From: Solicola gregarius
Lineage (GTDB): Bacteria; Actinomycetota; Actinomycetes; Propionibacteriales; Nocardioidaceae
Assembly: GCF_025790165.1 (NCBI RefSeq)
Contig: NZ_CP094970.1
Coordinates: forward strand, 4,216,001-4,280,000
Length of the DNA stretch: 64,000 bases
Direction: 5' to 3'
Under the pieces are notes generated by a model. That model ran no database searches. It was not told the DNA's origin and saw only the letters and a list, made by a program, of their open reading frames with translations. This document shows, in pieces, positions 7,046 through 52,301 of this stretch (position 1 is the first letter of the stretch; each line of letters opens with the position of its first letter). The translations under genes and the position numbers were made by a program.

Positions 7046-7069
7046 CAGCATGTTCCGCTTGACCGGAGG
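7039..7069 (+). promoter_or_regulatory. Anti-ribosome-binding-site hairpin of the terC riboswitch
   Basis: CCTCCGG (7039-7045) is perfectly complementary to CCGGAGG (7063-7069), which contains the terC Shine-Dalgarno GGAGG, 9 bases before GTG 7079. The first strand is also the 3' half of the aptamer P1 stem. The two pairings exclude each other, which predicts translational control: P1 formed (Mn2+ bound) frees the ribosome-binding site, and P1 open hides it. Confidence 0.75.
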
Positions 7070-7078
7070 TTTGAATCT

Positions 7079-8059
7079 GTGGATGTCACTACAGCCGAGT
7101 GGCTCATCACGGTGGGTGTCACCGTGGCCGTACTCCTGTTCGACGTCGTCATCGTCGCTCGCCGCCCGCACGAGCCGACGATCAAGGAATGCGTCATCGC
7201 GCTGTCGGTGTACATCGGCCTGGCGTTGCTCTTCGGCATCTGGGTGACGTCGTTCCACGGGCACGACTACGGCGTCCAGTTCTTCGCGGGCTGGCTCACC
7301 GAGTACAGCCTGTCGATCGACAACCTGTTCGTCTTCATCATCATCATGTCGGCCCTGAATGTGCCCCGGAAGTACCAGCAGGAGGCGCTGCTCGTCGGGA
7401 TCATCCTGGCGCTGATCTTCCGCGGGATCTTCATCGCGCTCGGCAAGGTCGCGATCGACAACTTCTCCTGGGTCTTCTACATCTTCGGCGCGTTCCTCGT
7501 GTACACCGCGTACACGTTGGTGAAGAGCTACCGGAGCCACGATGACGAGGAGTACAAGGAGAACCGGCTCATCGTCTTCGCGCGTACGCACCTGAACGCG
7601 ACCGACGAGTACCACGGGCTCAAGCTGTTCATCAAGCAGAACGGCAAGCGGATGATCACGCCGATGTTCATCGTGATCGTCGCGCTCGGCTCGACCGACA
7701 TCATGTTCGCGCTCGACTCGATCCCCGCGATCTACGGGCTGACGCAGGAGGCGTACATCGTCTTCACCGCGAACGTGTTCGCCCTGATGGGGCTCCGCCA
7801 GCTGTACTTCCTGCTCGGCGACATGCTGCAGAAGCTGGTGTACCTGTCGCTGGGGCTCTCGTTCATCCTCGCCTTCATCGGCGTCAAGCTCGTGCTGCAC
7901 GCACTGCACGAGAACGAGCTGCCGTTCATCAACGGTGGCGAGCCCCTCGACGTACCCGAGATCGACACCCTGGTCAGTCTCGGCGTGATCATCGTCACGC
8001 TTGCCGTGACGGCCGTCGCGAGCCTTCTCAAGTCGCGCAACCAGGCCGAGATCCAGTAG
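7079..8059 (+). CDS. TerC/Alx family membrane transporter
   Basis: A 326-residue polytopic protein of the TerC family with about eight or nine hydrophobic segments. It carries the acidic intramembrane motifs typical of the family (SLSIDNLFVF near residue 80 and GSTDIMFALDSIPAI near residue 210). Members export Mn2+ or help metallate secreted proteins; the name derives from tellurite resistance. GTG 7079 follows GGAGG at 7065-7069 and gives the expected N-terminus. Longer in-frame upstream sequence covers the riboswitch and is not coding. The Mn2+-type leader supports manganese homeostasis. Confidence 0.92.
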   Translation: MDVTTAEWLITVGVTVAVLLFDVVIVARRPHEPTIKECVIALSVYIGLALLFGIWVTSFHGHDYGVQFFAGWLTEYSLSIDNLFVFIIIMSALNVPRKYQQEALLVGIILALIFRGIFIALGKVAIDNFSWVFYIFGAFLVYTAYTLVKSYRSHDDEEYKENRLIVFARTHLNATDEYHGLKLFIKQNGKRMITPMFIVIVALGSTDIMFALDSIPAIYGLTQEAYIVFTANVFALMGLRQLYFLLGDMLQKLVYLSLGLSFILAFIGVKLVLHALHENELPFINGGEPLDVPEIDTLVSLGVIIVTLAVTAVASLLKSRNQAEIQ

Positions 8060-8194
8060 ATCGGCGCGTCGTCGGCGGCGGGCAGTCTCTGTCCGCCGCC
8101 ACCTGACCCAGATGTCAATAACACAGCGTGATTGCGACACGCCGGGCGGACTTGGCCGTGGCGAAAACCTGTCGTAGTGTGTCGGTTGCTACTC

Positions 8195-8395
8195 GACCGG
8201 CACGCCGAATTCCGCCCGGCCGGTCGGGTCCCTACCGTCAACTGCACGACGAGGGCGGAAGTGGGGGAACCACACGTTCCTCGGAGTTGGCCACGCACCA
8301 CGGTGCAGGTCGACTCCTCGGGGTGAAGTCGCGAAAGCGACGGGGCACCTTCTGGCCCTAACCCGACAGCTCACCTCACAGGCGTCGGAAGGGAT
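8195..8395 (+). promoter_or_regulatory. ydaO/yuaA (c-di-AMP) riboswitch upstream of the Rpf gene
   Basis: The 342-base gene-free stretch 8060-8401 holds a structured leader with ydaO signature blocks: GCCGAATTCCGCCC (from 8204), GGGGGAACCACA, GGGGTGAAGTCGCGAAAGCGAC, and the 3' block CCCGACAGCTCACCTCACAG followed by GCGTCGGAAGG just before the start codon. Family knowledge: this class binds cyclic di-AMP, usually turns expression off, and in actinobacteria often precedes rpf and NlpC/P60 genes. Ends are approximate. I see nothing else in 8060-8194 beyond likely promoter sequence. Confidence 0.85.
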
Positions 8396-8401
8396 CACCC
8401 T

Positions 8402-8917
8402 GTGTCTTCCACTGTTTCGCGCAACCACTCCGGTATGCGCCGCTCAGTCCGCGTCGTTTCGTCCACCCTCGCAGTCGGCGCTCTCGTCGCCGGCACGATG
8501 GCCGTGACGACGACTACGGCCGACGCCGCCAAGAACCGCACCTGGAACCGCCTCGCGCAGTGCGAGTCCGGTGGCCGCTGGCACATCAACTCGACGTACG
8601 ACGGCGGGCTCCAGTTCAGCCCGTCGACCTGGCGCGGCTACGGCGGCGGCAAGTTCGCCCCCTACGCCTACAAGGCGAAGCGCTGGGAGCAGATCGCGAT
8701 CGCCCAGCGCGTGCTGCGCGGCCAGGGCTGGGGTGCGTGGCCGGCCTGCTCGGCCTCGCTCGGCCTGGACCACTCCGACGCCGTCGCCCCGTGGGAGGGG
8801 CGCCCGCGCAAGGTGATCAAGTCGTTCTCGGGCAAGAACCACGGCTCCGCGAACCTCTACCTGCATTCGATGTCCGGCAAGAAGCACAAGGCCTCGGCGT
8901 TCACGCCGCTGCGCTGA
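8402..8917 (+). CDS. Secreted resuscitation-promoting-factor-type transglycosylase
   Basis: A 171-residue secreted muralytic enzyme. A signal peptide (about 1-42, ending ADA) is followed by a lysozyme-like Rpf domain (about 45-115): LAQCESGGRWHINS contains the catalytic Glu55, GGLQFSPSTW is present, and Cys54 pairs with the later WPACSA cysteine in known Rpfs. It cleaves peptidoglycan glycan strands during growth or dormancy exit. The C-terminal 55 residues are Lys/His/Ser-rich with no LysM or G5 module. GTG 8402 follows GGAAGGGA in the riboswitch tail, so translation may be directly gated. Confidence 0.92.
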   Translation: MSSTVSRNHSGMRRSVRVVSSTLAVGALVAGTMAVTTTTADAAKNRTWNRLAQCESGGRWHINSTYDGGLQFSPSTWRGYGGGKFAPYAYKAKRWEQIAIAQRVLRGQGWGAWPACSASLGLDHSDAVAPWEGRPRKVIKSFSGKNHGSANLYLHSMSGKKHKASAFTPLR

Positions 8918-8927
8918 CCTCGCCAAC

Positions 8928-8973
8928 ACGCACGCTGGCCTCGTCCCGATCTCGGGGCGGGGCCAGTTTGCGT
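8928..8973. terminator. Bidirectional hairpin between rpf and NlpC/P60 genes
   Basis: The two arms (ACGCACGCTGGCCTCGTCCC and GGGGCGGGGCCAGTTTGCGT) pair over about 20 positions with a few mismatches around a 6-base loop. It sits between the two convergent stop codons, which suits a shared intrinsic terminator. No U-tract follows, as is common in high-GC actinobacteria. Confidence 0.7.
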
Positions 8974-9851
8974 CAGTGCCGGATGAACCTGCCGGCGCCG
9001 GCCAGGTCGGCGCGTCGCGGCGGCGCCATCGGCGCATCCTCGATGTGCTGTGACCGGTCGCCGTCGGGCGCGTGCAGCATCGCGAGCTCGGCGCCCGCCG
9101 GGTTGGTCGCGAAGCCCACGTGGGTGATGCCGCGCGACGTCAGCCCGAAGAAGTAGAGGTCACCCGTCGACGCCTCGGTCGGGTCGAGCCTGGTCGCCGC
9201 TTCGATCTGGTCGTACGCGTCGCGCGGCACCGTGACGCCCGCCCTGCGGTGGACGAGATGGACGAATCCGGAGCAGTCGAGTCCCCATCCGCTCGTGCCG
9301 CCCCAGACGTACCGCATGCCGACGAACTGCCGTGCCTCCGTCAGCAGCGCCTCGACGTCGCGTACGTCGGTCGGCTCGGGTACGCGTGCGACCGCGGACG
9401 TCGGAGCCGTAATGGGGCCGTCCGGTCCGGCCAGTCGCACGACAGCGGGTCCGCGCTCGGTCTCGGGGAGCACGGTGCCGTACGAGAGCTCGCGGTCGTC
9501 GGCCGTGACGGTGGGCGTGGTCACGACGGCCAACGGGCCATCGACGGGATCGGTGTCGGACACATGAGCTGCGGGCACCCACCCCGGATAGCCGGCGGGA
9601 TCCGCCGACGACGGCTGCCAGGGAAGCACCAGCTCGACCCAGCCGGCGCGCTCGGAGACGACGCGCACGGGCTCGCCGTAGAGGGCCTGGGTCTCGGCGC
9701 GGCCGTGCAGGGCCGACGGCGGCGCAGCGAGCAGGGCGGCGTTCCAGGCGACCGGGTCGGGTGTCCGGGCGACGATCGCGGCGTCGACGTCGCGCGGCGC
9801 GTCGGGTCCTTTCCAGACCGTTGTGACGGGCACTGAGATCACCGTGGTCAC
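8973..9851 (-). CDS. NlpC/P60 murein-peptide endopeptidase (YkfC-like)
   Basis: A 292-residue cysteine peptidase. The N-terminal 155 residues look like SH3-type domains (YGEPVRVVSERAGWVELVLP). The C-terminal NlpC/P60 domain has C193 (LDCSGF), H244 (ITHVGFA) and a likely third residue at H260. The family cuts the gamma-D-Glu-diamino-acid bond. No signal peptide is visible, as in B. subtilis YkfC, which acts on imported murein peptides. GTG 9851 overlaps the epimerase stop by 4 bases (GTGA), so the two are translationally coupled. Together they would split and epimerise muropeptide fragments. Confidence 0.9.
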   Translation of the reverse strand: MTTVISVPVTTVWKGPDAPRDVDAAIVARTPDPVAWNAALLAAPPSALHGRAETQALYGEPVRVVSERAGWVELVLPWQPSSADPAGYPGWVPAAHVSDTDPVDGPLAVVTTPTVTADDRELSYGTVLPETERGPAVVRLAGPDGPITAPTSAVARVPEPTDVRDVEALLTEARQFVGMRYVWGGTSGWGLDCSGFVHLVHRRAGVTVPRDAYDQIEAATRLDPTEASTGDLYFFGLTSRGITHVGFATNPAGAELAMLHAPDGDRSQHIEDAPMAPPRRADLAGAGRFIRH

Positions 9852-10922
9852 GCGTGCACCTCGCGGATACCGAGCCCGGGCTCGCGGGAGAGGATGATCG
9901 TCGCGTCGTCGTAGCGCGGCCCGCCGGCGTACGGCGATGCGGCCGCCCACCATGCGGCGTCGAGGTCGTTCACCGCAGTCGTCTCGTACGCCGCGACGAG
10001 GCTCGCGGCGGCGCCGATGCCTACGTGGGTCTCCATCATCGAGCCGACCATCGTGCCGACGCCGTGGCTGCGGGCGCCCTCGAGGAGCGTGCGCGCGTTG
10101 TGGAGGCCACCGCACTTCGCCAGCTTGACGTTGATCATGTCGACCGCGCGGCGGCGGATCAGCTCGATGAGATCGCGGGTCGTGTGCACGCTCTCGTCGG
10201 CCATGATCGGCGTCGCGACGCGATCGGTGACCCAGGCGAGACCGTCGAGGTCGGCGGCGGCGACCGGTTGCTCGATCAGCTCGATCTCGAGGCGAGCGTC
10301 CTCGAAGCGCTCCGATGACCGAGACGGCCTCGCGTGGCGTCCACCCCTGGTTGGCATCGAGGCGGATACGCACGTCGGGCCCGGCCGCGTCGCGTACGGC
10401 ACGCACGCGCTCGACATCGGTCGCTGCATCGGTGCCGACCTTCATCTTGAGCACGCCGAACCCGTCGGCGATCCGCTCGCGAGTCGTGTCGGGCAACTCG
10501 GAGGCCTCACCCACCGAAAGCGTCACGTCGGTGGGGACCTCGTGGCGAGTGCCGCCCAGGAGACGGGGGAGCGATACGCCGAGCCGGCGCGCGGCGACAT
10601 CGTGCAGGGCAACGTCGACCGCCGCCTTGGCGCCGGCATTCGCGACGACCGCGCGCGACACGTCGCGTAGCAGCGGGACGAGGTCGTCGGGATCGCGTCC
10701 GGTCAGCACCGCCGCGAGAGGGCCGTCGATACACTCCTTCGCGCTGGCGAGCGACTCGCCGGTCACCTGCCACACCGCCGGTGCCTCGCCGAACCCGCGT
10801 ACGCCGTCGTCGTCCTCGATCTCGACGACGACGGTGTCGATGGTCTCGGTACGCCGGAGCGCCGTGACGAAAGGTGTGTGCAGCGGGACGCTGAGCCGGT
10901 ACGTGCGGACGGCGGCGATCAT
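9848..10922 (-). pseudogene. Dipeptide (L-Ala-D/L-Glu-type) epimerase, frameshifted
   Basis: Enolase-superfamily epimerase that interconverts L-Ala-D-Glu and L-Ala-L-Glu during murein-peptide use. The first 203 residues include the KMK pair (159/161) and Asp189 (RLDANQGW). After one extra G at 10312/10313 the frame shifts, and the rest continues in another frame with IEQPV, MADESV and INVKLAKCGG. Removing that base restores a full-length protein with all metal- and base-forming residues. It could be a genuine pseudogene or a sequencing indel. As it stands, the N-terminal frame runs on into the NlpC/P60 gene. Confidence 0.85.
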
Positions 10923-10934
10923 GCCGGCAGCCTA

Positions 10935-11093
10935 GTGCCCTGCGTTCGAAGTACCTTGACGTCTTTCGCCGCCCAGGCGGCGCCCCGCGGCGTTCTCGTC
11001 GTGCAAATAGGACCCACTATGACCTTCCTCCTCGGCCTTGCGGTGCATCCACCTGGACGACGCCTTCCGTAAAGCCGCTTCAACACAGGACAC
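10935..11093. mobile_element. MITE-like element with about 17-bp terminal inverted repeats and TA duplication
   Basis: A 159-base non-coding insert. The left end GTGCCCTGCGTTCGAAG and the right end, read inward as GTGTCCTGTGTTGAAG, match at all but two substitutions and one gap. It is flanked on both sides by TA (10933-10934 and 11094-11095), the target duplication of IS630/Tc1-mariner-type transposases. Removing it and one TA leaves the serine hydrolase stop TAG followed 9 bases later by the epimerase ATG, an intact operon junction. No transposase is encoded. Confidence 0.7.
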
Positions 11094-11926
11094 TAGTAGT
11101 CCGAGCGCGCCGCCCAGCACTCGGCGGCGACGCGCGCGACCAGCCGGTGCGCCGCGGGATCGTCGAGCTCGGCGCCGGTGAAGATCGACAGGATGAACGG
11201 CTCCTCGCCCGCCGGTCGCACGATGCCGACATCGTGGCAGGCCTCGTCGATCCAGCCGGTCTTGTGCGCGATGTACGTACCGGGCGGGAGCCCGGCCGGG
11301 ATGGCGTCGTTGGTCTCGCACGCCGCGAGGACCCGCTCCACCTCGGCCGTACGTGCGGGCGGCAGCAACCGCCCACCGCACAGCGCCACCAGCACCTGGG
11401 CGAGGTCGGCGGCCGTCGCGGTGTTGAAGATCCCTGCGTCACTAGCCGGCTCGTCCTGGATCGGCCGGCGCAACCGGGCCGCCTTCGCGCCCGCCGCGTC
11501 GTACACGTCGTTGACCGCGTCGATACCGATGCGTTCGATCAGCAGGTTCGTGGCGAGATTGCTGGACAGCACGATCGAGCGCTCGGTGAGCCACCCGATC
11601 GTCGCGCGCTCACCGAGGCGAGCCCACGGCGCCGGATCGTTGTCGTAGTCGGCGGTGTTGCGAAACGATCGCCCGTCGACGGTCGACGCGAACTCCTCGT
11701 GCACCGCCAGCTCGTCGTCGAGGTGCAGCCGGCCCTCCTCGGCCGCCCGGTGCACTGCGACGAGCAGTGGCAGCTTGAGCGTGCTTGCCGCCGGATGCTC
11801 GTGCCCGGCATCGCGTACGAGCCTGGGGGTGCCGTCGAGCGCGCCCATCCAGACCGAGATGGTCGCGTCGTGCTCGGTTGCGAGCGACGCGCTCGCGTGC
11901 TCGGCTCTAGCGATGCCTTCGCTCAT
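11093..11926 (-). CDS. Class A beta-lactamase-related serine hydrolase
   Basis: A 277-residue member of the penicillin-binding/beta-lactamase fold. The SxxK motif is S48-K51 (ASTLKLP), SSN (IVLSSNLATN) stands for SDN, and HKTGW supplies KTG. No signal peptide is apparent, so a cytoplasmic amidase or peptidase acting on imported peptides is more likely than classical beta-lactam resistance; a beta-lactamase role cannot be excluded. Its ATG overlaps the stop of the APC permease (ATGA). Its own stop TAG is now formed by the target TA plus the first base of the MITE-like insert. Confidence 0.85.
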   Translation of the reverse strand: MSEGIARAEHASASLATEHDATISVWMGALDGTPRLVRDAGHEHPAASTLKLPLLVAVHRAAEEGRLHLDDELAVHEEFASTVDGRSFRNTADYDNDPAPWARLGERATIGWLTERSIVLSSNLATNLLIERIGIDAVNDVYDAAGAKAARLRRPIQDEPASDAGIFNTATAADLAQVLVALCGGRLLPPARTAEVERVLAACETNDAIPAGLPPGTYIAHKTGWIDEACHDVGIVRPAGEEPFILSIFTGAELDDPAAHRLVARVAAECWAARSDY

Positions 11927-42943: not shown

Positions 42944-42965
42944 CCTTCAGCGGGCGGAGTGACCC

Positions 42966-42993
42966 TTGACACATAAACATCTATGGTTAAAGG
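42966..42993 (+). promoter_or_regulatory. Candidate promoter of the P450 operon
   Basis: TTGACA (42966-42971) and TAAAGG (42988-42993) are 16 bases apart in an AT-rich pocket about 35 bases before the P450 GTG. The same stretch contains TAAAC...GTTTA half-sites that a GntR/FCD regulator could use. Promoter calls by eye in this genome are tentative. Confidence 0.4.
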
Positions 42994-43026
42994 TTTAGGA
43001 ATTCCTGCTTCCCGAGAGGAGTTCCC

Positions 43027-44235
43027 GTGACCGTCTCCGCCTCCCGCTCGGCCGCTCCGTACTTCGACATCTCCGACCCCGCGTTCTCCGTGCAGTCCGA
43101 GCAGGTACGCGCGGCGCGCGACGCGAGCTGGTACGCCGAGACGAACTACGGGCTCGCGATCCTGCGGTACGAGGAGGTCAACCGGCTGATGAAGGACCGC
43201 CGGCTCCGCCAGGGCAGTGCCGCGTGGCCGGCGCACAACGGGGTGACCGAGGGGCCGTTCGCCGACTGGTTCGCGAGCTGGATCCTGAACAAGGAGGGCG
43301 ACGACCACAAGCGCCTTCGCCGCCTCCTCAACCCGGCGTTCTCGCCGAAGCTGCTGGCGAGCCTCGTCCCACGGTTCCAGGAGCTCGCGAACGAGCTGAT
43401 CGACGCGTTCCACGACACCGGGCACTGCGACTTCGTTGCCCAGTTCGGCGAGCCGTACGCCGCCCGCGTCATCGCGATCATGCTCGGCATCCCCGAGGAG
43501 GAGTGGCCGCGCATCGCCGGCCTGTCGACGACCATCGGGCTCTCGCTCGGCGTCACCATCAAGGACGACCTACCCGAGATCGAGACCGCGCTCGCCGGCC
43601 TGTACGAGTACGGCGACGAGCTGATCGAGTCGCGCCGACGCGAGCCGCGCGACGACTTCATGACCCGCCTCGTACAGGCGGAGCGAGACGACGACAAGCT
43701 CAGCCATCAGGAGCTGCGCGACACCCTCGCGCTGCTCGTCTTCGGCGGCTACGACACGACCCGCAACCAGCTCGGCCTGGCGATGCAGGCGTTCGTGCGC
43801 AACCCCGACCAGTGGCGGCTCCTCGCCGAGCGGCCCGAGCTCGGCAAGGCCGCCGTCGAAGAGGTGATGCGGGTCAACCCGACCGTCACCTGGGTCACGC
43901 GTGAGGCGCTCGAGGACTTCACGTTCCAGGACATCGACATCGAGGCGGGTACGACCATCCACCTGTTCTCCGAGTCGGCCGGTACCGACCCGCGGGTCAT
44001 GGCCGGTGGATTCGACATCACCGCCGAGCGGCCGCCGCACTTCGGCTTCGGTGGGGGAGCGCACCACTGCCTCGGCCACTTCGTCGCGCGCAGCGACATG
44101 AGTGAGGCCCTTCCGCTGCTCGCGCGCCGGCTGCTCGAGCCGCGTATCGACGGCGACGCGACCTGGTTGCCGCTCTCCGGAAACACCGGACCCACCCGAC
44201 TGCCCCTCTCCTTCCAGCAAGGGACGAAGCGATGA
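43027..44235 (+). CDS. Cytochrome P450 (candidate secondary-amine monooxygenase)
   Basis: A 402-residue soluble bacterial-type P450. The I-helix FGGYDTTRNQ (239-248) carries the oxygen-activation Asp-Thr; EEVMR is the ExxR motif; haem ligand Cys348 lies in FGFGGGAHHCLGH. GTG 43027 follows GAGAGGAG. It overlaps the ferredoxin gene by 4 bases. P450s next to a 3Fe-4S-type ferredoxin, a reductase and a glutamine-synthetase-like gene are known in mycobacterial piperidine/pyrrolidine and morpholine degradation (CYP151-type). By context this one may hydroxylate a cyclic or secondary amine; the substrate is not proven. Confidence 0.92.
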   Translation: MTVSASRSAAPYFDISDPAFSVQSEQVRAARDASWYAETNYGLAILRYEEVNRLMKDRRLRQGSAAWPAHNGVTEGPFADWFASWILNKEGDDHKRLRRLLNPAFSPKLLASLVPRFQELANELIDAFHDTGHCDFVAQFGEPYAARVIAIMLGIPEEEWPRIAGLSTTIGLSLGVTIKDDLPEIETALAGLYEYGDELIESRRREPRDDFMTRLVQAERDDDKLSHQELRDTLALLVFGGYDTTRNQLGLAMQAFVRNPDQWRLLAERPELGKAAVEEVMRVNPTVTWVTREALEDFTFQDIDIEAGTTIHLFSESAGTDPRVMAGGFDITAERPPHFGFGGGAHHCLGHFVARSDMSEALPLLARRLLEPRIDGDATWLPLSGNTGPTRLPLSFQQGTKR

Positions 44236-44426
44236 AGGTCTCCGTCGACCGGTCGGTCTGCCAGAACCACGGACAGTGCGCGATCGCCGCTCCCGAGGTG
44301 TTCGACATCGCCGACGACGGCGAGCTGGTGTACGAGCCCGAGCCGTCCGACGAGTTCGAGGCCGACGTCGAGGACGCCGCCGACGTGTGCCCGGTACAGG
44401 CGATCCTGGTCGGGAGCGCCGGATGA
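44232..44426 (+). CDS. Ferredoxin, [3Fe-4S]-type
   Basis: A 64-residue electron carrier. Cluster ligands are C10, C16 and C53, with His13 in the CxxHxxC position where a 4Fe-4S ferredoxin has its second Cys. This fits P450-dedicated 3Fe-4S (or His-ligated) ferredoxins. It is strongly acidic, as expected for docking to a basic P450 surface. It overlaps the P450 and the reductase genes by 4 bases each, so the three-protein electron chain is translationally coupled. Confidence 0.93.
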   Translation: MKVSVDRSVCQNHGQCAIAAPEVFDIADDGELVYEPEPSDEFEADVEDAADVCPVQAILVGSAG

Positions 44427-45667
44427 GGTCCGCCGAACCGGTCGTCATCGTCGGAGCGGCGATGGCGGGCCTGCGTACCGCCGAGCAGCTGCGCACGGGC
44501 GGCTGGGACGGTCCGATCATCGTCATCGGCGACGAACCGCACCTCCCGTACAACCGGCCGCCGCTGTCGAAGGAGGCGTTGTCGCTCTCGGCAGAGCGGC
44601 CTATCGGCGAGTGGCACGACACGGTCGCGTTTCGGCTACGCCCGAGCGTCTCGGATGTCCACTGGCGATTGGGCCGCACGGTCGTGGCCGCCGACCTCAC
44701 GGCGCGTACGGTCAAGCTCGACGACGGAGAGGCGCTCGGGTGGTCGGGTCTCGCCGTGGCGTCGGGCCTCCGGCCGAGACGGCTTCCCGCCGACTGGCCC
44801 ACCCAAGGCCGCGTCGCCCTTCGTACGCTCGACGATGCGATCGCCCTGCGTGCGGGCCTGCGACCGGGCGTGCGGGTGGTGATCGTCGGGGCGGGCTTCA
44901 TCGGCTGTGAGGTCGCCGCCTCCGCACGTCGACTCGGCTGCGAGGTGACGGTCGTCGAGCCGCTCGATGCCCCGCTCGTACGCGGGCTGGGCAATGAGGT
45001 CGGCACTGCGGTACGTCGCTACCACGAGCGGTCTGGCATTCGGTTCCGAATGGGACGCGGTGTGGTCGGGCTCGCTTCGGAGGGTGAGCGCGTCGCCGGC
45101 GTACGCCTGGACGACGGCGAGGAGCTTCCCGCCGACCTGGTCCTGGAGGCGATCGGTGCCGTTCCCAATGTCGAGTGGCTCGAGGGCAACGGGCTCGACC
45201 TCGGCGACGGGGTGCTGTGCGATGCAAGCCTTCGCGTCGAGGGGCGCTCAGGCGTCGTCGCCGCCGGCGACGTCGCGCGCTACCCGAACGCGCGGTATGC
45301 GATCGGCGCGCAACGTATCGAGCATTGGTCGAATCCGACCGACACGGCCAAGCGAGCGGCATCGACCCTGCTCGCCGACATCGATGGCGCACCACCGACA
45401 TCGACGCCGTTCGCTCCACTGCCGTCGTTCTGGAGCGACCAGGGTGACCTGCGTCTGCAGAGCTTCGGCTCGACCTGCATCGCCGACGCGGCAACGGTCG
45501 TCGACGGAAGACTCGACCCGCTCGATGACGGTGCCGTCGTCGAGTACACGCTCGGCAGCGAACTCGTCGGCGTCCTGCTCATCAACCAACCGCCCAAGAC
45601 CTTTCGCGCGCACCGAGCTCGCGTGGACGCAGCGTACCTATCCATCGATGGAAGGAACCCCCGATGA
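44423..45667 (+). CDS. FAD-dependent ferredoxin reductase
   Basis: A 414-residue two-dinucleotide-binding flavoprotein of the putidaredoxin-reductase type. VVIVGAAMAGLRTAEQL near residue 7 binds FAD, VVIVGAGFIGCEVAA near 155 binds NAD(P)H, and GDVARYPN is the second FAD motif. It would pass electrons from NAD(P)H through the ferredoxin to the P450. It sits within the operon with 4-base overlaps at both ends. Confidence 0.92.
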   Translation: MRSAEPVVIVGAAMAGLRTAEQLRTGGWDGPIIVIGDEPHLPYNRPPLSKEALSLSAERPIGEWHDTVAFRLRPSVSDVHWRLGRTVVAADLTARTVKLDDGEALGWSGLAVASGLRPRRLPADWPTQGRVALRTLDDAIALRAGLRPGVRVVIVGAGFIGCEVAASARRLGCEVTVVEPLDAPLVRGLGNEVGTAVRRYHERSGIRFRMGRGVVGLASEGERVAGVRLDDGEELPADLVLEAIGAVPNVEWLEGNGLDLGDGVLCDASLRVEGRSGVVAAGDVARYPNARYAIGAQRIEHWSNPTDTAKRAASTLLADIDGAPPTSTPFAPLPSFWSDQGDLRLQSFGSTCIADAATVVDGRLDPLDDGAVVEYTLGSELVGVLLINQPPKTFRAHRARVDAAYLSIDGRNPR

Positions 45668-47007
45668 CGGCCCTCGACGAACACCGGCGGCGCAACGCCG
45701 ATCCGCAAGCCCGCAAGGCGATTCAAGATGTCATCGCCGCAGAGGGGGTCGAGTACATCTACTACCAGGTGATCTCGCTCGGCGGACGCGTGCTGGCGAA
45801 GGTCGTCCCCGCGAAGCATCTCGCCCGCAACCTCGAGCGAGGAGTGCAGATGCACCGCGCCGCGATCGTCGACTTCACCACCACGCGCGAGGGTGAACTG
45901 CTCGGCGGCGGTACGCAGGCGCCCGAGTACACCGCCATGCCGGACCTCGACACGTTCGCCGTCCTGCCCTGGGACCGCACGGTCGCGCGCTTCCTGTGCC
46001 GCCTGTACGAACCGGAGCACCGCCCGGGCATCGGCGGCTCGGTGTTCGCCTGCGACCCGCGCGGCACCTTCATCCGTGCGCATGAGGAGTTCGAGGCAGC
46101 GACCGGTCTCGAGCTGCGTACCGGCTGCGAGCCGGAGATGACGTGGACGGGCCCGGGCCTCGACGTGAAGGTACGCCCAGACGCCAGCCCCGCCTATCAG
46201 ATGGATCTTCTCGAACGGATGCGCCCGATCTACCAGAGCCTGATCACGTACGCGTCCGACATGGGCCTCGACATGATCGAGGGTGATTACGAGGATCCCG
46301 GCCAGCTCGAGCTGAACTGGATGTACGACCGCGCCGACCGTACGGCCGACCGGCTGATGACCTACCGCACGATCTGTCGCCAGGTCGGCCGTGAGCACGG
46401 TGTGCAGCCGAGCTTCATGCCGAAGCCGACGACGGGCGCGATGGGCAACGGCTGCCACCACAACCTCAGTCTCTGGGACGGCGACGAGAACATCCTGGCC
46501 GAGGCGGGGCGGACGGAGCTGCACCTGACCGATCGTGGACGCCATGCGCTGGGCGGCCTGCTCCGCCACGCCGCGGGCTCGATGGCGGTCATGGGTTCGA
46601 CCGTCAACAGCTACAAGCGCTACTGGGATGCCGGGCAGTTCGCGCCCACCCAGATCGACTGGGGCATGGACGACAAGACCTGCACCGTGCGTCTCTCGGC
46701 GAACGGCCGTCTCGAGTACAAGCTCCCCGACGCGAGCGTGAACCCGTACCTCTCGCACACGTTGCTGCTGGCGTCGATCCGCGACGGTCTCGACGACGGG
46801 GTCGATCCCGATGGTGGCGGCTTCGACGCGTTGCCGCTGACGCTGGGTGACGCGGTCACGGCCTTCGCCTCGGCCAAGCCGATGCGCGATGCGTTACCGG
46901 CGGCGCTCGCCGATACCTACATCGCGATGAAGTCCGACGAGTGGGCGCGGTTCTGCGGTGCGGTGACCGACTGGGAGTTCGAGATGTACCTGGAGGCCAC
47001 TCCGTGA
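45664..47007 (+). CDS. Glutamine-synthetase-like gamma-glutamyl ligase
   Basis: A 447-residue GlnA-family protein with the ATP-grasp-like catalytic barrel (GNGCHHNLSLW; SYKRYWDAGQFAPT; RLEYKLPDASVNPYL). It lacks the classical adenylylation loop, and its N-terminus (YIYYQVISLGGRVLAKVVP) differs from housekeeping enzymes. GS-like ligases in amine catabolism (PuuA, IpuC, and those beside pip/mor P450s) join glutamate to an amine to protect it during oxidation. With ALDH and gamma-glutamyl hydrolases downstream, that role is the best inference. Nitrogen assimilation is unlikely. Confidence 0.9.
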   Translation: MTALDEHRRRNADPQARKAIQDVIAAEGVEYIYYQVISLGGRVLAKVVPAKHLARNLERGVQMHRAAIVDFTTTREGELLGGGTQAPEYTAMPDLDTFAVLPWDRTVARFLCRLYEPEHRPGIGGSVFACDPRGTFIRAHEEFEAATGLELRTGCEPEMTWTGPGLDVKVRPDASPAYQMDLLERMRPIYQSLITYASDMGLDMIEGDYEDPGQLELNWMYDRADRTADRLMTYRTICRQVGREHGVQPSFMPKPTTGAMGNGCHHNLSLWDGDENILAEAGRTELHLTDRGRHALGGLLRHAAGSMAVMGSTVNSYKRYWDAGQFAPTQIDWGMDDKTCTVRLSANGRLEYKLPDASVNPYLSHTLLLASIRDGLDDGVDPDGGGFDALPLTLGDAVTAFASAKPMRDALPAALADTYIAMKSDEWARFCGAVTDWEFEMYLEATP

Positions 47008-47060
47008 GCGAGGGAGCAGAGCGAGGGTCGAGCGAGCACCCGAGCGAACAATCGAGCACC

Positions 47061-47765
47061 ATGACGCCACTTCGCTTGGTGTGCGCCGACCTGCACGCAC
47101 CGCCGCTGTTCTCGCTGATGCGCGCAGACGGCACGCGTGAGGGGTACGAGCCGGCCGTTGCGCAGTTGATCGCCGACCAGCTCGGTCGCCCCCTTGAATG
47201 GGTCCCGCGTCCGTGGGCGGAGATGATCCCGACCGTTCAGGCGGGCGATGCCGACGGCCTGCTGTGCGGACAGGGCATCTCGCCCGAACGACTCGCACTG
47301 GTCGACTTCACCCGTCCGTACGCGGTCTTCGACGAGTCGGTGCTCGTACGCGCGGGCGACCCCGCCAGAAGGGCCGGCGATCTTGGCGGCCGGCGGGTGG
47401 CGGCGATCGCCGGCAGCGTGAACCTCACGCTGGCAAGGTCGTTCGTCGACGCGGAGGTCGTTGCGTTCGGCGGGGAGTCCGACGATGTGTTCGGCGAGAT
47501 GATCGGTGCACTCGAGGCCGGCGACGTCGACGCGGTCGTCGACGACGATGTCGCTCTGGTGCCCCTTGCCGACGACCCGCGGTTCGAGATCGCCTTCACG
47601 GTCCGTACGCGCAACGCGTGGGGCGTCGCGGTCGCCAAGGATCGCCCGGACCGCCTTGCGCTGCTGGACGATGCGTTGGCGCACGTTGTGGAGTCGGGCG
47701 GCCTCGAGGTCGCATGGAAGCAGTGGCTGCCGACGTTGGAGTTTCCGTTCGGGGGTGACACGTGA
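47061..47765 (+). CDS. Solute-binding-protein-3-fold protein without signal peptide
   Basis: A 234-residue protein with the bilobal extracellular-solute-binding family 3 fold (RLVCADLHAPPLFSLMRADG, GYEPAVAQLIADQLGR, RPWAEMIPTVQAGDADG). No signal peptide or lipobox is visible and no ABC permease is nearby, so it is probably cytoplasmic: a sensor, a metabolite buffer or an enzyme on this fold. ATG 47061 is preferred. A GTG at 47004 overlapping the previous stop would add 19 low-complexity residues encoded by GAGCGAG-like repeats. Confidence 0.75.
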   Translation: MTPLRLVCADLHAPPLFSLMRADGTREGYEPAVAQLIADQLGRPLEWVPRPWAEMIPTVQAGDADGLLCGQGISPERLALVDFTRPYAVFDESVLVRAGDPARRAGDLGGRRVAAIAGSVNLTLARSFVDAEVVAFGGESDDVFGEMIGALEAGDVDAVVDDDVALVPLADDPRFEIAFTVRTRNAWGVAVAKDRPDRLALLDDALAHVVESGGLEVAWKQWLPTLEFPFGGDT

Positions 47766-48472
47766 CGCGCCCGTTGGTTGCGGTCGCGGGTCTCCGCGCC
47801 CGCTCGATCACCGGCTTGCGACGGCCCGGCATCGGCGTCTCCGAGCGCGTCCTGGATTCGGTGTTCCGGGCCGGCGCCGAGCCGGTCGTACTCCCGCCGA
47901 TCGCCGCGCTCGACCACTACGCGCTCGGGCCGTACGTCGGTGTCGTGCTTCCCGGCGGCGGAGATCTCGATCCGAGCTGGTACGGCCAGCAGCGCGACGA
48001 CGCGAGTGAGGACGTCGACCTGATCCACGACCGTTGCGATCTGACGCTCGTACGCGACTGCATCGCGCGGCGGATGCCGCTGCTCGCGATCTGCCGCGGC
48101 ATGCAGGCGCTGAACGTCGCGTGCGGCGGCACGATCCGCCAGGACATCGGCCCGAGCGACGTACCGCATCGCAACGGCATGCACACCGTGACGCTGACGC
48201 CGGGGTCGGCGGTCGCTCGCGCGATGGGGTGCGACGAAGTGGTCGTCTCGTCGTACCACCACCAGTCCTTGGATGCGCTCGGCGACGGGCTGGCCGTCAC
48301 GGGCCGCGCACCGGACGGATGCGTCGAGACCGTCGAGCACCGCGAGGCACCCGTGCTGGCGGTGCAGTGGCACCCCGAGGACGACGCACACGAGCAGCCG
48401 TACGAGCAGGCGCTGTTCGACGCCCTGCTCACCCCGCAGAGCTGGTACGAGACCGCAGGAGCCGTGACATGA
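47762..48472 (+). CDS. Gamma-glutamyl-gamma-aminobutyrate hydrolase family protein (class I amidotransferase), copy 1
   Basis: A 236-residue peptidase C26/PuuD-like protein. Nucleophile Cys111 is in AICRGMQALN, and QWHPED gives the catalytic His and Glu. PuuD removes glutamate from gamma-glutamyl-GABA in putrescine breakdown; here it would release the amino acid after aldehyde oxidation. GTG 47762 overlaps the previous gene, and the stop overlaps the aldehyde dehydrogenase ATG (ATGA). Confidence 0.9.
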   Translation: MTRPLVAVAGLRARSITGLRRPGIGVSERVLDSVFRAGAEPVVLPPIAALDHYALGPYVGVVLPGGGDLDPSWYGQQRDDASEDVDLIHDRCDLTLVRDCIARRMPLLAICRGMQALNVACGGTIRQDIGPSDVPHRNGMHTVTLTPGSAVARAMGCDEVVVSSYHHQSLDALGDGLAVTGRAPDGCVETVEHREAPVLAVQWHPEDDAHEQPYEQALFDALLTPQSWYETAGAVT

Positions 48473-49959
48473 CCATGACGTACGCCGAGAACCTGGACCG
48501 GCTGGGATCCCTCGTGAAGCAGACCGACGCCTTCATCGACGGAGTGTTCACCCCGTCGGTCGAGGGCCGGAGGTTAGACAGCATCTCGCCTCGTGACGGC
48601 GCGGTCGTGGCATCGGTCGCCGAGTGCGACCGGGCCGACGTCGACGCGGCCGTACGTGCGGCGCGGGCTGCCTTCGAGGACGGTCGCTGGAGCCGTCGGG
48701 CGCCGCGTTCCCGCCGGCGGGTGCTGCAGCGTCTGTCGCGGCTGCTCGAGGAGCATGCCGACGAGCTGGCGTTGCTCGAGAGCGTCGACATGGGCAAACC
48801 GGTCAGCGACGCGATCGCCGTCGACCTGCGGGTGAGCGTGCAGACCTTCGACTTCTACGCCGAGGCGATCGACAAGACGTACGACCAGGTGGCGCCGACC
48901 GACCCGAGCGTGCACGCCACGATCACGCGCGAACCGCTGGGGGTGGTCGGGGCTGTCGTACCGTGGAACTTCCCGCTGATGCTCACGAGCTGGAAGCTCG
49001 GTCCCGCGCTCGCGGCAGGTAACAGCGTCGTCCTCAAGCCGGCGGAGCAGTCGCCGCTCTCGGCATTGCGCCTGGCCGAGCTCGCCGCGGAGGCGGGCCT
49101 GCCCGACGGCGTACTCAACGTGGTCCCCGGATACGGCGAGACCGCCGGTGCCGCGATCGGTCGGCACCTGGACGTCGACGCCGTCACGTTCACCGGATCC
49201 GGCCCTGTCGGCCGGGAGTTCCTCCGGCACGCGGCCGACAGCAACATCAAGCAGGTGTCGCTGGAGCTCGGCGGAAAGAGCCCGCAGATCGTGATGGCCG
49301 ACGCCCCGGACACCGTGGATGTCGCGGCGGCGATCGCCGGCGGGATCTTCTTCAACCAGGGCGAGGTGTGTTCGGCGGGCTCACGGCTTCTCGTGCACAG
49401 CTCGCGGCGCGACGAGCTCACCGAGGCCGTCGTGCAGGCGGCGCGCGAGCTCGAGCCCGGTGATCCGATCGATCCCGCGGCACGGCTCGGCGCGATGGTC
49501 GAGGCGGAGCATCTGGACCGCGTGCTCGCGTACGTCGACAGCGCCGACCAGGAAGGTGCTCGGCGACTGATCGGCGGCGGCCGGCGCCGGGAGGACACGG
49601 GCGGCTACTACCTCGAGCCCACGGTGCTCGACGACGTAGCGCCGACCATGCGGGTCGCACAGGAGGAGATCTTCGGTCCCGTGCTCACGATCCTGCCGTT
49701 CGACACGATCGAGGAGGCGGTCGCGCTGGCGAACGGCACGCCGTACGGACTCGCCGCCGCGGTGTGGACGAACGACCTCTCGACTGCGCACCTCACGGCG
49801 AAGGCGATACGTGCGGGCACGGTCTGGGTGAACTGCTACGACGCGTCCGACGTGACGGTGCCGTTCGGCGGATACGGTGAGTCCGGAATCGGGCGCGACA
49901 AGTCGCTGCATGCGCTCGACAAGTACAGCCACCTCAAGACGACCTGGATGCAACTGTGA
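48469..49959 (+). CDS. Aldehyde dehydrogenase (PuuC-like)
   Basis: A 496-residue NAD(P)-dependent aldehyde dehydrogenase. VPWNFPLM and the FTGSGPVG cofactor loop are present; SLELGGKSPQIV holds the general-base Glu; nucleophile Cys301 is in GEVCSAGSR. It is most like gamma-glutamyl-gamma-aminobutyraldehyde dehydrogenases and related amino-aldehyde enzymes. It lies between two PuuD-like hydrolases with overlapping ends, so it likely oxidises the (gamma-glutamylated) amino-aldehyde formed after P450 ring opening. Confidence 0.93.
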   Translation: MTMTYAENLDRLGSLVKQTDAFIDGVFTPSVEGRRLDSISPRDGAVVASVAECDRADVDAAVRAARAAFEDGRWSRRAPRSRRRVLQRLSRLLEEHADELALLESVDMGKPVSDAIAVDLRVSVQTFDFYAEAIDKTYDQVAPTDPSVHATITREPLGVVGAVVPWNFPLMLTSWKLGPALAAGNSVVLKPAEQSPLSALRLAELAAEAGLPDGVLNVVPGYGETAGAAIGRHLDVDAVTFTGSGPVGREFLRHAADSNIKQVSLELGGKSPQIVMADAPDTVDVAAAIAGGIFFNQGEVCSAGSRLLVHSSRRDELTEAVVQAARELEPGDPIDPAARLGAMVEAEHLDRVLAYVDSADQEGARRLIGGGRRREDTGGYYLEPTVLDDVAPTMRVAQEEIFGPVLTILPFDTIEEAVALANGTPYGLAAAVWTNDLSTAHLTAKAIRAGTVWVNCYDASDVTVPFGGYGESGIGRDKSLHALDKYSHLKTTWMQL

Positions 49960-50678
49960 CACCGCCGCTGATTCGAGTCGTCGTACCCCTGGAGATCGTC
50001 GGGGCCAGCGACGAGGTGCGCACACTGGTCAACCGGTTCACCGTCTCTGCCCTGAGGCTGCTCGCGAACGCCGGTGCCGAGGTCGGTGTCGTCGACGTGT
50101 CGGCCGCGGAGCGGCTCCCGGTCGAATCCGTGTGCGCCGCCGACGGCGTCCTGCTGCTCGGCGGTGGGGACCTCGATCCGGCGCTGTACGGCGGTGACCC
50201 GGCGGCCCCGAACCTCTACGGCGTCGACCGTCGTGCCGACGACTACAGCATCGCGGTCGTCCGTGCGGCTCGCCGCCGCGGCGTACCCGTGCTCGGCATC
50301 TGTCGCGGCAACCAGGTGATCAACGTGGCGGCCGGAGGCACGCTGTATCCCGATATCGCCGACCCGACACTCCACCACGGCGTCGCGCCCGAGCCGATGT
50401 TCCTCGACGAGACGGTGACGTTGGTCGATCGCTCGTGGGTCGGTGACCTATACGGCACCGAGCGCCTGGTCGTCCGCTCCGGGCACCACCAGGCCATCCG
50501 CGACGTCGCACCCGGCCTGCGCGCCGTCGCGTGGGCCGGTGACGGCATCGTCGAGGGCGTCCAGGCCGACGATGGCTGGTGCGTCGGCGTCCAGTGGCAC
50601 CCCGAGGACACCGATGGTCCGGCCGAGGACGCCGAGACGATCATCAAGAGCTTCGTCGGCGTCTGCACCTCACGCTGA
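49956..50678 (+). CDS. Gamma-glutamyl-gamma-aminobutyrate hydrolase family protein, copy 2
   Basis: A 240-residue second peptidase C26 member, with nucleophile Cys116 in GICRGNQVIN and QWHPED conserved. It is clearly diverged from copy 1 outside the motifs, so the two may act on different gamma-glutamyl substrates or form a heteromer. The start is GTG 49956. Its stop TGA is the first three bases of a 22-base tandem repeat array. Confidence 0.9.
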   Translation: MTPPLIRVVVPLEIVGASDEVRTLVNRFTVSALRLLANAGAEVGVVDVSAAERLPVESVCAADGVLLLGGGDLDPALYGGDPAAPNLYGVDRRADDYSIAVVRAARRRGVPVLGICRGNQVINVAAGGTLYPDIADPTLHHGVAPEPMFLDETVTLVDRSWVGDLYGTERLVVRSGHHQAIRDVAPGLRAVAWAGDGIVEGVQADDGWCVGVQWHPEDTDGPAEDAETIIKSFVGVCTSR

Positions 50679-50807
50679 GGAGAGGATCCCGGCCCGGTGA
50701 GGAGAGGATCCCGGCCCGGTGAGGAGAGGATCCCGGCCCGGTGAGGAGAGGATCCCGGCCCGGTGAGGAGAGGATCCCGGCCCGGTCAGGAGAGGATCCC
50801 GGCCCGG
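50676..50807. repeat. 22-bp tandem repeat (six units)
   Basis: TGAGGAGAGGATCCCGGCCCGG is repeated head-to-tail at 50676, 50698, 50720, 50742, 50764 and 50786. The first five are identical; the sixth starts TCA. The first unit supplies the stop codon of the preceding gene. There are no spacers, so this is a minisatellite, not CRISPR. Confidence 0.95.
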
Positions 50808-50827
50808 TGTGGGGCCAGAATTCTCTC
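50790..50827. terminator. Hairpin formed by the last repeat unit
   Basis: GAGAGGATCCCGGCCC in unit six pairs with GGGCCAGAATTCTCTC at 50812-50827, with 12 of 16 positions matching. A second complement, GGGCCAGAACTCTCTCCTCA, follows directly. The structure lies between the P450 operon and the oppositely oriented sensor gene, so it likely terminates both. The tandem units look like duplications of one terminator arm. Confidence 0.55.
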
Positions 50828-50850
50828 GCGGGAGGGCCAGAACTCTCTCC

Positions 50851-51537
50851 TCAGCGTAGGGCGAAGAGCCGCCAGCCGACGCCCACGCCGCCGACGGGCA
50901 GCGGCTCGGCAGTACGGATCCGAAGTCGCTCCGACGGCGCCACGTCGGGGCTGTTCGACACGATCACCCGGTCGTCGCGGTCGACGAGGGCGAGCTCGGC
51001 CGCGCCGCGTCGTACGTGCTCGAACAGCATCGGGTCGAAGGCGGCCATCAGGACGTCGACGCCGCTCGCGCCGACGAACACGTCGTCGACCACGACCGGT
51101 GTCGCGAAGGTGAGGATGAACCGGTCGGCGCCCGCGTAGTCGAGGTACGGACCGCGTACCGACGGCCGGCCCGCCTTCGCGCCGACGTACCACTCCATCT
51201 CGACGTAGTCGTAGCCGTCGGGGCTGGTCGGCTCGAGGTCGAGCACGAGCCGCGAGTGACCACCCGAACCGTCCGACTGCCACCACTCGAGGTACCGGTC
51301 GACGTCGGCGAGCGTGGTCGGCTCGGCTAGGAAACCCGCACCGGTGTAGTGCGGGTGCGAGTCGAGCTCGGCGAAGATCGCCTGTTGCAACGGCTCGAGA
51401 TCGTGGGCGGAGACGGTGCCGACCGCGTCCCGCCAGAGGGTACGTACGCCGTCGCGGATGCGTCCGGCCGTGGCGAAGACCTCGTCGAGCGTCGCCTCGA
51501 TGCGGACAGCGCAGTCGCGAGTAGCCGAATCGGTCAT
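50851..51537 (-). CDS. Soluble PDC/Cache-like sensor domain protein
   Basis: A 228-residue protein. The region HPHYTGAGFLAEP, YLEWWQ, EWYVGAKAGRPSVRGPYLDYAG and ILTFATPVV...GVDVLM follows the beta-sheet order of PDC/Cache sensor domains. Unlike most Cache domains it has neither membrane helix nor signal peptide, so it would sense a cytoplasmic ligand. ATG 51537 overlaps the gntR stop by 4 bases (ATGA), implying the regulator and sensor are made together and perhaps act together on the P450 operon. Confidence 0.75.
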   Translation of the reverse strand: MTDSATRDCAVRIEATLDEVFATAGRIRDGVRTLWRDAVGTVSAHDLEPLQQAIFAELDSHPHYTGAGFLAEPTTLADVDRYLEWWQSDGSGGHSRLVLDLEPTSPDGYDYVEMEWYVGAKAGRPSVRGPYLDYAGADRFILTFATPVVVDDVFVGASGVDVLMAAFDPMLFEHVRRGAAELALVDRDDRVIVSNSPDVAPSERLRIRTAEPLPVGGVGVGWRLFALR

Positions 51538-52277
51538 GTCGTGAGTCCAATGTGCGCGCGGATGAGTCGACGCATGTTCGCGGTGGCGTGCCCGCGGGCG
51601 AGTGAGTACGCGAGCGACTCGTCCTCGTTCTCGATCGCGGCCGCGATGGCGACGTGGTCGGCCGCGACGGCCGCCGGGTCGAGAGGCTCGGGCTCCGGGA
51701 GCCACAGCAGGTTCGCGTACTCGGACTGCAGCGACACCTCGCGTCGGGTGAGGCGCTCGGACTGCGAGCCGACCGCGACCTCGATGTGGAACCGGCTGTC
51801 GAGGCGTGCGCATTCGGCGACCGGTGCGGTGTCGGCGAGCGCACGGGCCAGTTCGAACATACGCGTCACCGTAGCGCGTTCGGCCCGCCGGGCGGCCAGG
51901 CCGGCGCATGCCGCGGAGACGGCGGTGGCCTCGTCGCCGAGATCGCGCAGCTCCGTGCTGCTCAGGCGAGCGAGCTCCTGGGCGAGCCGGTCGGTCGGGT
52001 GGCTCCTGGGCCGGCGTACGAAGCTCCCGCCGTTGCGGCCACGCCGCGTCGTGACGTACCCCTGCTCGCGCAGACTCGCCAGCGCCTCGCGAAGGGTGAC
52101 GGTCGAGACGCCGAACTGAGCGGCGAGCTCGGCCTCCGACGGCAGCTGCTCGCCCTCGGCGACCAGGCCGAGACGGATGGCCTCGGTGATCCGCTGCGCC
52201 ACGACATCCGCACGACCGCCCTGGCTGATCGGCGTGAACACCGTCAGCCGCGCGGATCCGGACGTCTCGGCGGTCAC
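51534..52277 (-). CDS. GntR-family transcriptional regulator, FCD subfamily
   Basis: A 247-residue regulator. It has an N-terminal winged helix (LPSEAELAAQFGVSTVTLREALASLREQGYV) with an RRGRNGGSFV wing, and a C-terminal all-helical FCD effector domain with the metal-binding D-R-H pattern (LDSRFHIEV and GHATANMRRL). FCD proteins sense small carboxylates or amino acids. It faces the P450 operon convergently, and the related mycobacterial pip cluster is also controlled by a GntR protein. It is therefore the likely regulator. The start is GTG 52277. Confidence 0.9.
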   Translation of the reverse strand: MTAETSGSARLTVFTPISQGGRADVVAQRITEAIRLGLVAEGEQLPSEAELAAQFGVSTVTLREALASLREQGYVTTRRGRNGGSFVRRPRSHPTDRLAQELARLSSTELRDLGDEATAVSAACAGLAARRAERATVTRMFELARALADTAPVAECARLDSRFHIEVAVGSQSERLTRREVSLQSEYANLLWLPEPEPLDPAAVAADHVAIAAAIENEDESLAYSLARGHATANMRRLIRAHIGLTT

Positions 52278-52301
52278 GCAGGGCCTCTCATTGGCTCGAC
52301 T

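Follow-up and report, generated by a model that had tools for sequence, protein, structure and literature searches.

We analysed a 64,000-nucleotide stretch of the Solicola gregarius genome (hereafter the window; RefSeq assembly GCF_025790165.1, contig NZ_CP094970.1, positions 4,216,001 to 4,280,000 of the forward strand), in which a block of catabolic genes lies between ctaB and ctaA. Its eight plus-strand genes, spanning 43027 to 50678, are arranged head to tail, led by a cytochrome P450 and its predicted electron carriers and followed by a ligase resembling glutamine synthetase (GS), a protein with a solute-binding protein (SBP) fold, two PuuD-like hydrolases and a PuuC-like aldehyde dehydrogenase (ALDH). 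This operon probably (about 0.75 in our estimate) encodes an extended actinobacterial form of the PipA/MorA (CYP151)-type pathway, by which small cyclic secondary amines (pyrrolidine or piperidine, for instance) are broken down. The gene set had been named in an earlier inspection of the letters alone (the sequence-only reading); all of its members were present with open frames, and their coordinates are slightly corrected here:

ctaB, ends at 42863
42966..42999, plus strand, promoter-operator: TTGACA, then a TCTA-N4-TAGAG-like palindrome with its core at 42980
43027..44235, plus strand, cytochrome P450, PipA/MorA (CYP151)-like, GTG start (Pfam p450)
44232..44426, plus strand, single-cluster ferredoxin, CxxHxxC (Pfam Fer4_13/Fer4_15)
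44423..45667, plus strand, FAD/NAD(P)H ferredoxin reductase (Pfam Pyr_redox_2 and Reductase_C)
45664..47007, plus strand, GS-like ligase, probably a gamma-glutamyl-amine ligase (Pfam Gln-synt_C)
47061..47765, plus strand, SBP_bac_3-fold protein without signal peptide (Pfam SBP_bac_3)
47762..48472, plus strand, PuuD-like gamma-glutamyl hydrolase 1, Peptidase C26 (Pfam)
48469..49959, plus strand, PuuC-like ALDH (Pfam Aldedh)
49956..50678, plus strand, PuuD-like gamma-glutamyl hydrolase 2 (Pfam)
50851..51537, minus strand, stand-alone dCache (PDC) protein (sub-threshold Pfam match and predicted structure)
51534..52277, minus strand, GntR/FCD transcriptional regulator (Pfam GntR and FCD, both over the gathering score)
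ctaA, from 52302, minus strand

As the sequence-only reading had noted, genes overlap at nearly every junction: six of the seven plus-strand junctions do so, by 4 bases each, and the sole exception is the 53-base gap between the GS-like and SBP genes. The Cache and GntR genes likewise overlap by 4 bases, forming a pair that is convergent to the eight-gene run and adjoins ctaA. Starts of the ferredoxin, reductase, SBP, ALDH and Cache genes were picked by us within longer frames, and start codons of relatives' proteins were assigned automatically. Nine of the ten proteins passed the Pfam gathering score, the exception being the Cache protein.

Distribution of the operon and its chromosomal setting

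Relatives were collected with one pattern-based P450 scan of a species-genome collection, which gave 87 related stretches; 80 were kept and searched with every window protein. We counted the 71 loci with more than 6 kb downstream (nine with 6 kb or less were left out), 47 of them having a P450 at least 63% identical to that of the window and 24 one below 63%. In the first group, an SBP gene lay within 8 kb in all 47 loci, GS-like and PuuD genes were each found downstream in 45, GntR and Cache genes lay near the P450 in 43 and 41, respectively, and any ALDH followed in 27. The two loci without a downstream GS-like gene (L080 and L092) carry one on the opposite strand; among the six Cache misses, the upstream sequence is shorter than 1.7 kb in four, and in L080 a Cache match lies slightly beyond 8 kb. 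Because the same genes recur together in many contigs, their arrangement, as read from these sequence matches, is far beyond chance.

The 24 loci with more distant P450s fell into two sets. All 17 with proteobacterial titles (P450 identity 57-63%) had two GS-like matches and were without SBP, Cache and GntR. Of the other seven, L112, L115 and L117 carried GS, SBP, PuuD1, GntR and Cache matches, and L113, L121, L123 and L125 had none of them. As a separate observation, the shorter of the two GS-like matches in the proteobacterial loci L094-L111 spans about 250 residues in most of them. Closer to home, SBP relatives (E <= 1e-40) occurred in 4 of 396 genomes of the phylum, its own included, among the matches listed and with seven candidates scored per genome; besides the window, two of these have a GS-like gene directly upstream, and the third (L159), on a short stretch, has no GS match. 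A P450 more than 50% identical was present in 4 of 58 relatives, again counting its own genome. By these searches the operon is patchy, recurring and rare.

The sequence-only reading had proposed that an amine operon here joins two pathway logics, oxidative ring opening and gamma-glutamyl protection. The likeliest reading is indeed an operon for cyclic secondary amines that includes a gamma-glutamyl step, but the joining is not local, since the joined operon recurs widely; a fusion unique to this genome was rejected on the same 47 loci. We also observed, within 40 kb of a Rhodococcus opacus plasmid, a P450 (52.9% identity), a GS-SBP pair, PuuD, ALDHs, an aminotransferase, a CoA-transferase, acyl-CoA dehydrogenases and a permease.

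The interval between ctaB and ctaA had been expected to differ among relatives, and the block is not carried by all of them. In a genome of the same genus (G001), ctaB and ctaA are about 15 kb apart and enclose different cargo: a sugar-type ABC transporter, a GH31 protein, a kinase, an aldolase, a luciferase-like monooxygenase and an FMN reductase. Flanking DNA of the window and of G001 aligns at 83% and 79%. The only block gene found common to both is the last PuuD gene, in the same interval (73% protein and 74.5% DNA identity); it is probably shared by descent, so the interval does not look like simply one new insertion. Between that gene and ctaA in G001 (L148 15000-18100), the luciferase-like monooxygenase and FMN reductase stand where the window has the Cache-GntR pair, and by their predicted functions they are other oxidative cargo in the same place. 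Among 34 other relatives with a ctaA match, 25 were resolved and nine could not be placed; in the 25, with ctaB and ctaA on one stretch, gaps measured 2-4,687 bases and block genes were absent at E <= 1e-5. The claim that the block is acquired or strain-variable is supported as regards a variable interval. Gain of the block by transfer fits these patterns, and with two species compared, loss in the same-genus genome may be the alternative.

A compositional island was rejected: the GC content of the block (0.675-0.715) resembles that of its flanks (0.644-0.715), and ARAGORN found no tRNA in the window. A 22-base tandem repeat at 50676-50809 (6.1 copies, 98% matches) separates the two convergent gene groups.

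Enzymes, binding proteins and a predicted operator

In the ferredoxin, C10, H13, C16 and C53 are invariant (60 relatives); in the P450, the heme cysteine C348 is invariant and T244 of the I-helix is at least 95% conserved (77 relatives). It shares 64-74% identity with the P450s at loci from Mycolicibacterium, Streptomyces and Rhodococcus. We tentatively place the window P450 with the PipA/MorA (CYP151) group by an indirect route: Mycobacterium or Mycolicibacterium appears in the titles of many P450 loci, and identity to these is 64-71%, the PipA and MorA sequences themselves standing outside the comparison. For the Gulosibacter relatives, identity to M. smegmatis PipA and HE5 MorA, whose substrates are piperidine and morpholine, is about 52-53% (PMC9477822, excerpt). 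The nearest solved structures were 3p3l/3p3o (E = 7.8e-79), followed by steroid P450s at 3e-49 and weaker. Grouping of the P450 with steroid or terpene families would have counted against the sequence-only reading. The rank of 3p3l/3p3o ahead of the steroid enzymes speaks for that reading; against it, the best NCBIfam row is the terpene-pathway enzyme pentalenolactone synthase, at 129 bits far below its cut-off of 700.

The GS-like protein has intact EPE and HH motifs, and its best solved match is the glutamate-methylamine ligase 9qur (E = 4.3e-47). It falls below the NCBIfam cut-offs for gamma-glutamylputrescine synthetase (PuuA, 191.6 of 650 bits), type I GlnA (189 of 429) and type III GS. 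PuuC is the top NCBIfam match of the ALDH (576 bits, cut-off 850), and the two PuuD-like proteins score 93 and 69 bits against a cut-off of 266. We therefore rejected equivalog identity with PuuA, PuuC and PuuD, all cut-offs having been missed; the resemblance is one of predicted function only. PuuD-like 1 has CRG and WHPE motifs, with C111, H204 and E206 at least 95% conserved (49 relatives), and in PuuD-like 2 the residues C116, H215 and E217 are invariant (50 relatives); these values come from alignment, a better measure than a motif regular expression that missed some relatives (44 and 47 of 49; 30 and 45 of 50).

The SBP-fold protein belongs by sequence family and fold (model mean predicted local distance difference test score, pLDDT, 93.6) to the ABC-transporter SBP_bac_3 group, but it lacks an export signal. 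By a simple hydropathy test rather than a trained predictor, a signal-like hydrophobic stretch was found in 0 of 55 relatives, where the highest N-terminal 17-residue value was 1.41 with upstream in-frame residues included. On the same scale the window protein reached 1.11, compared with 1.74-2.35 for all seven correctly framed paralogues in its own genome, which have both a signal-like stretch and lipobox-like motifs. For this control, 10 of 12 SBP_bac_3 matches were read, the window protein among them; L166 and L172, in the wrong frame, were not counted, and L167 and L173 were left out.

All 41 aligned SBP sequences keep R77 and D161-D162; E30, W47, W52, E92 and N121 are also invariant. We take R77 and D161 of the amino-acid-binding protein LAO to be the residues that anchor its ligand; both appear mutated in entries 6mkx and 6mla, which are among the matches of the SBP model, and in our own alignment to these residues LAO D161 corresponds to D162 of the window protein. 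Glutamate, aminoethylcysteine/ornithine and deoxyfructosyl-glutamine are the ligands of the best-matching folds, whose top rows are tied. From the model, the natural guess at a ligand is therefore a compound whose alpha-amino-acid end is free, for example a gamma-glutamyl amide. Amino-acid SBPs also gave rise to the enzyme cyclohexadienyl dehydratase, ancestral precursors of which occur among the matches, and the many further invariant polar and aromatic residues speak for the same idea; the protein could then be an enzyme, such as a lyase or isomerase, that acts on an imine or aldehyde formed along the pathway. We consider this unlikely, given that the presumed ligand-anchoring residues are kept in all aligned sequences and that the top folds are binders.

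The Cache protein (228 residues) misses the Pfam gathering score (33.6 against 45 bits, E = 3.8e-8), and its predicted structure (mean pLDDT 94.3), a long first helix followed by strands and short helices, aligns over its full length with solved dCache domains. We found no N-terminal signal or membrane helix. Hydropathy over 19 residues peaks internally at 1.64 in the window protein and exceeds 1.6 in 15 of 40 Cache sequences, one of the 40 having such a stretch in its first 60 residues; we read the internal stretches as core strands because the window model shows strands there. The protein thus looks soluble and cytosolic. The PDC-like sensor of the sequence-only reading is upheld as a dCache fold, to which this apparently cytosolic placement is now added.

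The 11 best VIA-align rows for the Cache model (Z = 19.8 to 18.1) cover eight distinct receptors, of which six count as amine receptors by title or by an excerpt of PMC10104139 (CqsR, PacA, McpU, TlpQ, PctD and McpX). The other two are MkcA and a Leptospira receptor, and in the Foldseek list the first title naming an amino-acid ligand is at rank 21. Residues Y109, Y111, W116, D133, T143 and D161 are invariant in all 40 sequences. The arginine that marks dCache_1AA amino-acid sensors, two residues before a conserved tryptophan, is presumably PctA R126; in the Cache proteins the tryptophan is invariant and the arginine column holds Met in 35, His in 3, Lys in 1, Thr in 1 and Arg in 0 of 40 sequences. 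Amine-sensing dCache_1AM domains are defined by positions equivalent to PctD F188, Y189, M215, S217 and D235, with a column at M215 that is always hydrophobic (PMC10104139, excerpt). Through a PctA alignment and an equal 18-residue spacing, W116, Y/F117, T143 and D161 (each in 40 of 40) fall at PctD-like places. The structural matches suggest an amine as ligand of the Cache protein, short of the strict dCache_1AM motif.

Upstream of the P450, a TCTA-N4-TAGAG core with at most one mismatch was present in 30 of 53 sequences with P450 identity of at least 63% (window and plasmid pGKT2 included), 19 of them exact, compared with a mean of 0.36 and a maximum of 2 in 50 shuffles; the sequences share descent and are not independent, and the shuffle statistic ignores this kinship. 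Below 63% identity, only 1 of 24 had the core. It nearly always lies directly 3' of TTGAC. In the window, the core differs at one position (TAAAG for TAGAG) and stands one base farther from TTGAC than in most relatives. A second core with at most one mismatch occurs in the window at 58408, without TTGAC, and two cores lie outside P450 promoters among the scanned loci (L094, minus strand, one mismatch; L123, about 500 bases upstream). A palindrome directly downstream of a -35-like box would suit repression at this predicted operator.

Proposed route and its alternatives

We infer all reactions, ligands and regulatory links of the following route from sequence. The ferredoxin and FAD reductase would supply electrons to the P450, which would hydroxylate the carbon adjoining the ring nitrogen; the resulting carbinolamine would open to an omega-aminoaldehyde in equilibrium with a cyclic imine. 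The GS-like ligase would cap the free amine with glutamate and so block re-closure, leaving the exposed aldehyde to be oxidised by the PuuC-like ALDH. A PuuD-like hydrolase would then free glutamate and an omega-amino acid (gamma-aminobutyrate, GABA, or 5-aminovalerate), to be taken up by a GABA transaminase encoded elsewhere in the genome. Support for glutamylation comes from GS-like, PuuC-like and PuuD-like genes standing together with intact motifs. Regulation probably runs through GntR/FCD at the palindrome in front of the P450 gene, with the apparently cytosolic Cache protein as the probable amine sensor. For the SBP-fold protein, the probable ligand is glutamate-like, the gamma-glutamyl intermediate being one candidate. 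More tentatively, and with less than an even chance of being right, two extracellular sensing and uptake folds may have been brought into the cytosol to serve a single pathway: a Cache protein that senses the amine and works with GntR/FCD on TCTA-N4-TAGAG, and an SBP gripping the glutamate end of gamma-glutamyl intermediates as carrier or gauge.

A candidate for the downstream steps lies in the same genome (G000:C1:2224284-2234076; L154 8285-18077), where the gene of a permease that shares 71% identity with the permease flanking the operon of Streptomyces brasiliensis (L047) adjoins genes for aminobutyraldehyde dehydrogenase (672 bits, cut-off 615) and GABA transaminase (581, cut-off 507). An unassigned frame follows, then CoA-transferase-like and acyl-CoA-dehydrogenase-like genes, both below cut-offs. 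Judged from its predicted genes, the cluster resembles a route for C4/C5 amino acids. Upstream lies a divergent frame that looks like a regulator gene, of PucR type on inspection by eye only. Separately, a second glutamylation-type cluster was seen at G000:C1:1952500-1959300 (L155, about 4500-11300), with distant matches to PuuD-like, ALDH, GS-like, GntR and permease-like genes. An operator before the distant permease operon was rejected, no core with at most one mismatch being found in L154 or L155.

Several points weigh against reading the operon as a cyclic-amine pathway. Membership of the P450 in the PipA/MorA group is indirect, as described, and its place in the P450 tree, beside Rhodococcus, Streptomyces ossamyceticus and Litchfieldella and apart from rows titled Nocardioides and Aeromicrobium, is weakly supported (Shimodaira-Hasegawa-like approximate likelihood ratio test 83, short search). 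The ordinary GS 8ool (E = 7.1e-47) is nearly tied with the methylamine ligase as a match to the GS-like protein. No ALDH match lay downstream in 20 of the 47 loci, and an ALDH at least 55% identical was found in just 17 of 82. An amino-acid receptor, CtaA with proline, is close behind in the VIA-align list of the Cache model (Z = 18.0), and the Cache column resembling PctD M215, with V, I, L or A in 29 of 40 sequences, has Thr or Gly in the other 11. Finally, the permease is 2 Mb away, so its tie to the operon rests on similarity to one permease.

The near-tie of the two ligase matches bears on a reading in which the substrates are the same amines, the GS-like enzyme only assimilates released ammonia, and the PuuC-like and PuuD-like enzymes serve other amines. 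The overexpressed GS of a related Gulosibacter cluster has likewise been tied to nitrogen use and assimilation (PMC9477822, excerpt). However, this genome holds three other Gln-synt_C genes that outscore the GS-like gene (456, 415 and 329 against 213 bits), the latter misses the GlnA cut-off, and in 45 of the 47 loci PuuD genes come after it within the operon, which makes a purely assimilatory role very unlikely. Dealkylation by the P450 of N-alkyl amines that are acyclic or larger, such as drugs, alkaloids or pollutants, would call for the same genes, with the GS-like and PuuD enzymes taking the primary amine and the ALDH the aldehyde. The proteobacterial layout suggests that substrates may differ, and directly after the Mycolicibacterium operon at L085 stands a reductase gene whose DmmA-like match is below cut-off; against this, N-heterocycles are the substrates of the described relatives (PMC9477822, excerpt), and the S. 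gregarius genome holds the GABA-type route and matching permease. We regard such dealkylation as quite unlikely.

A biosynthetic cluster making a product would accord with the pentalenolactone synthase row and with the nearest solved P450, 3p3l/3p3o, which we take to be the natural-product enzyme AurH. Yet no synthase or assembly-line gene was found in the block by Pfam or NCBIfam, the hydrolases and ALDH point to breakdown, and relatives adjoin permease genes (three Pfam-tested) or an aminotransferase gene, so that we give biosynthesis hardly any weight.

Comparison with known systems

Cyclic secondary amines occur widely among solvents, drugs and alkaloids. The PipA/MorA systems that attack them include a reductase in MorABC and a GntR-type regulator, PipR. 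In the literature examined they are known mainly for the first step, and the conserved operon described here could supply the later ones; it also makes their GS-like gene testable as a cap against ring re-closure. The SBP without a signal, the cytosolic Cache protein and the conserved operator go beyond the sequence-only reading. The first two offer a test of whether extracytoplasmic sensor folds are reused inside the cell: if true, the SBP fold would have gained a new use in catching pathway intermediates within the cytosol, and a GntR regulator with a separate Cache ligand sensor would be a new regulator layout. In open-licence PMC literature we found no description of the extended operon, of a cytosolic SBP in amine breakdown or of the GntR-Cache pair.

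The Cache protein shares with the dCache_1AM amine sensors their fold, conserved aromatics, a hydroxyl residue (T143) and the final aspartate (D161). It differs from them in being stand-alone and apparently cytosolic, beside a GntR gene rather than part of a membrane receptor, and in keeping the upstream aromatic Y109, with an M215-like column that is not always hydrophobic.

Gordonia plasmid pGKT2 (L149 12476-19487) carries GntR/FCD, Cache, P450 (69.5%) and GS (60%, the match spanning 381 of 447 residues) in an unchanged order, and its copy of the operator has one mismatch. The region gave no matches at 1e-5 to the ferredoxin, reductase, SBP, PuuD or ALDH. Directly after the GS match come an FAD reductase and a long P450, presumably xplB-xplA of explosive (RDX) breakdown; descent of this reductase alongside that of the operon was rejected, there being no match at 1e-5. 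The same regulator, operator and P450 before these presumed RDX genes suggest how the latter may be expressed, namely from an amine-sensing promoter.

With the putrescine (Puu) pathway, the operon has in common a GS-like ligase, a PuuC-like ALDH and a PuuD-like hydrolase. Unlike that pathway, the block has no PuuB-like oxidase or PuuP-like permease by Pfam or NCBIfam, and the aminoaldehyde would come from the P450.

The closest likeness is to PipA of M. smegmatis and MorA of Mycobacterium HE5, where P450, ferredoxin and GS-like gene form one operon, as here: CYP151-pipA, fdx and glnA are described as an operon in polycyclic aromatic hydrocarbon-degrading Mycobacterium (PMC10516948, excerpt). 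These systems act on piperidine, pyrrolidine and morpholine (PMC9477822, excerpt). Compared with this core as the excerpts describe it, the S. gregarius operon adds a cytosolic SBP, PuuC, two PuuD genes, Cache and a conserved operator. Judged by gene content, its core is of a known kind, and the operon is a recurring, extended form of it.

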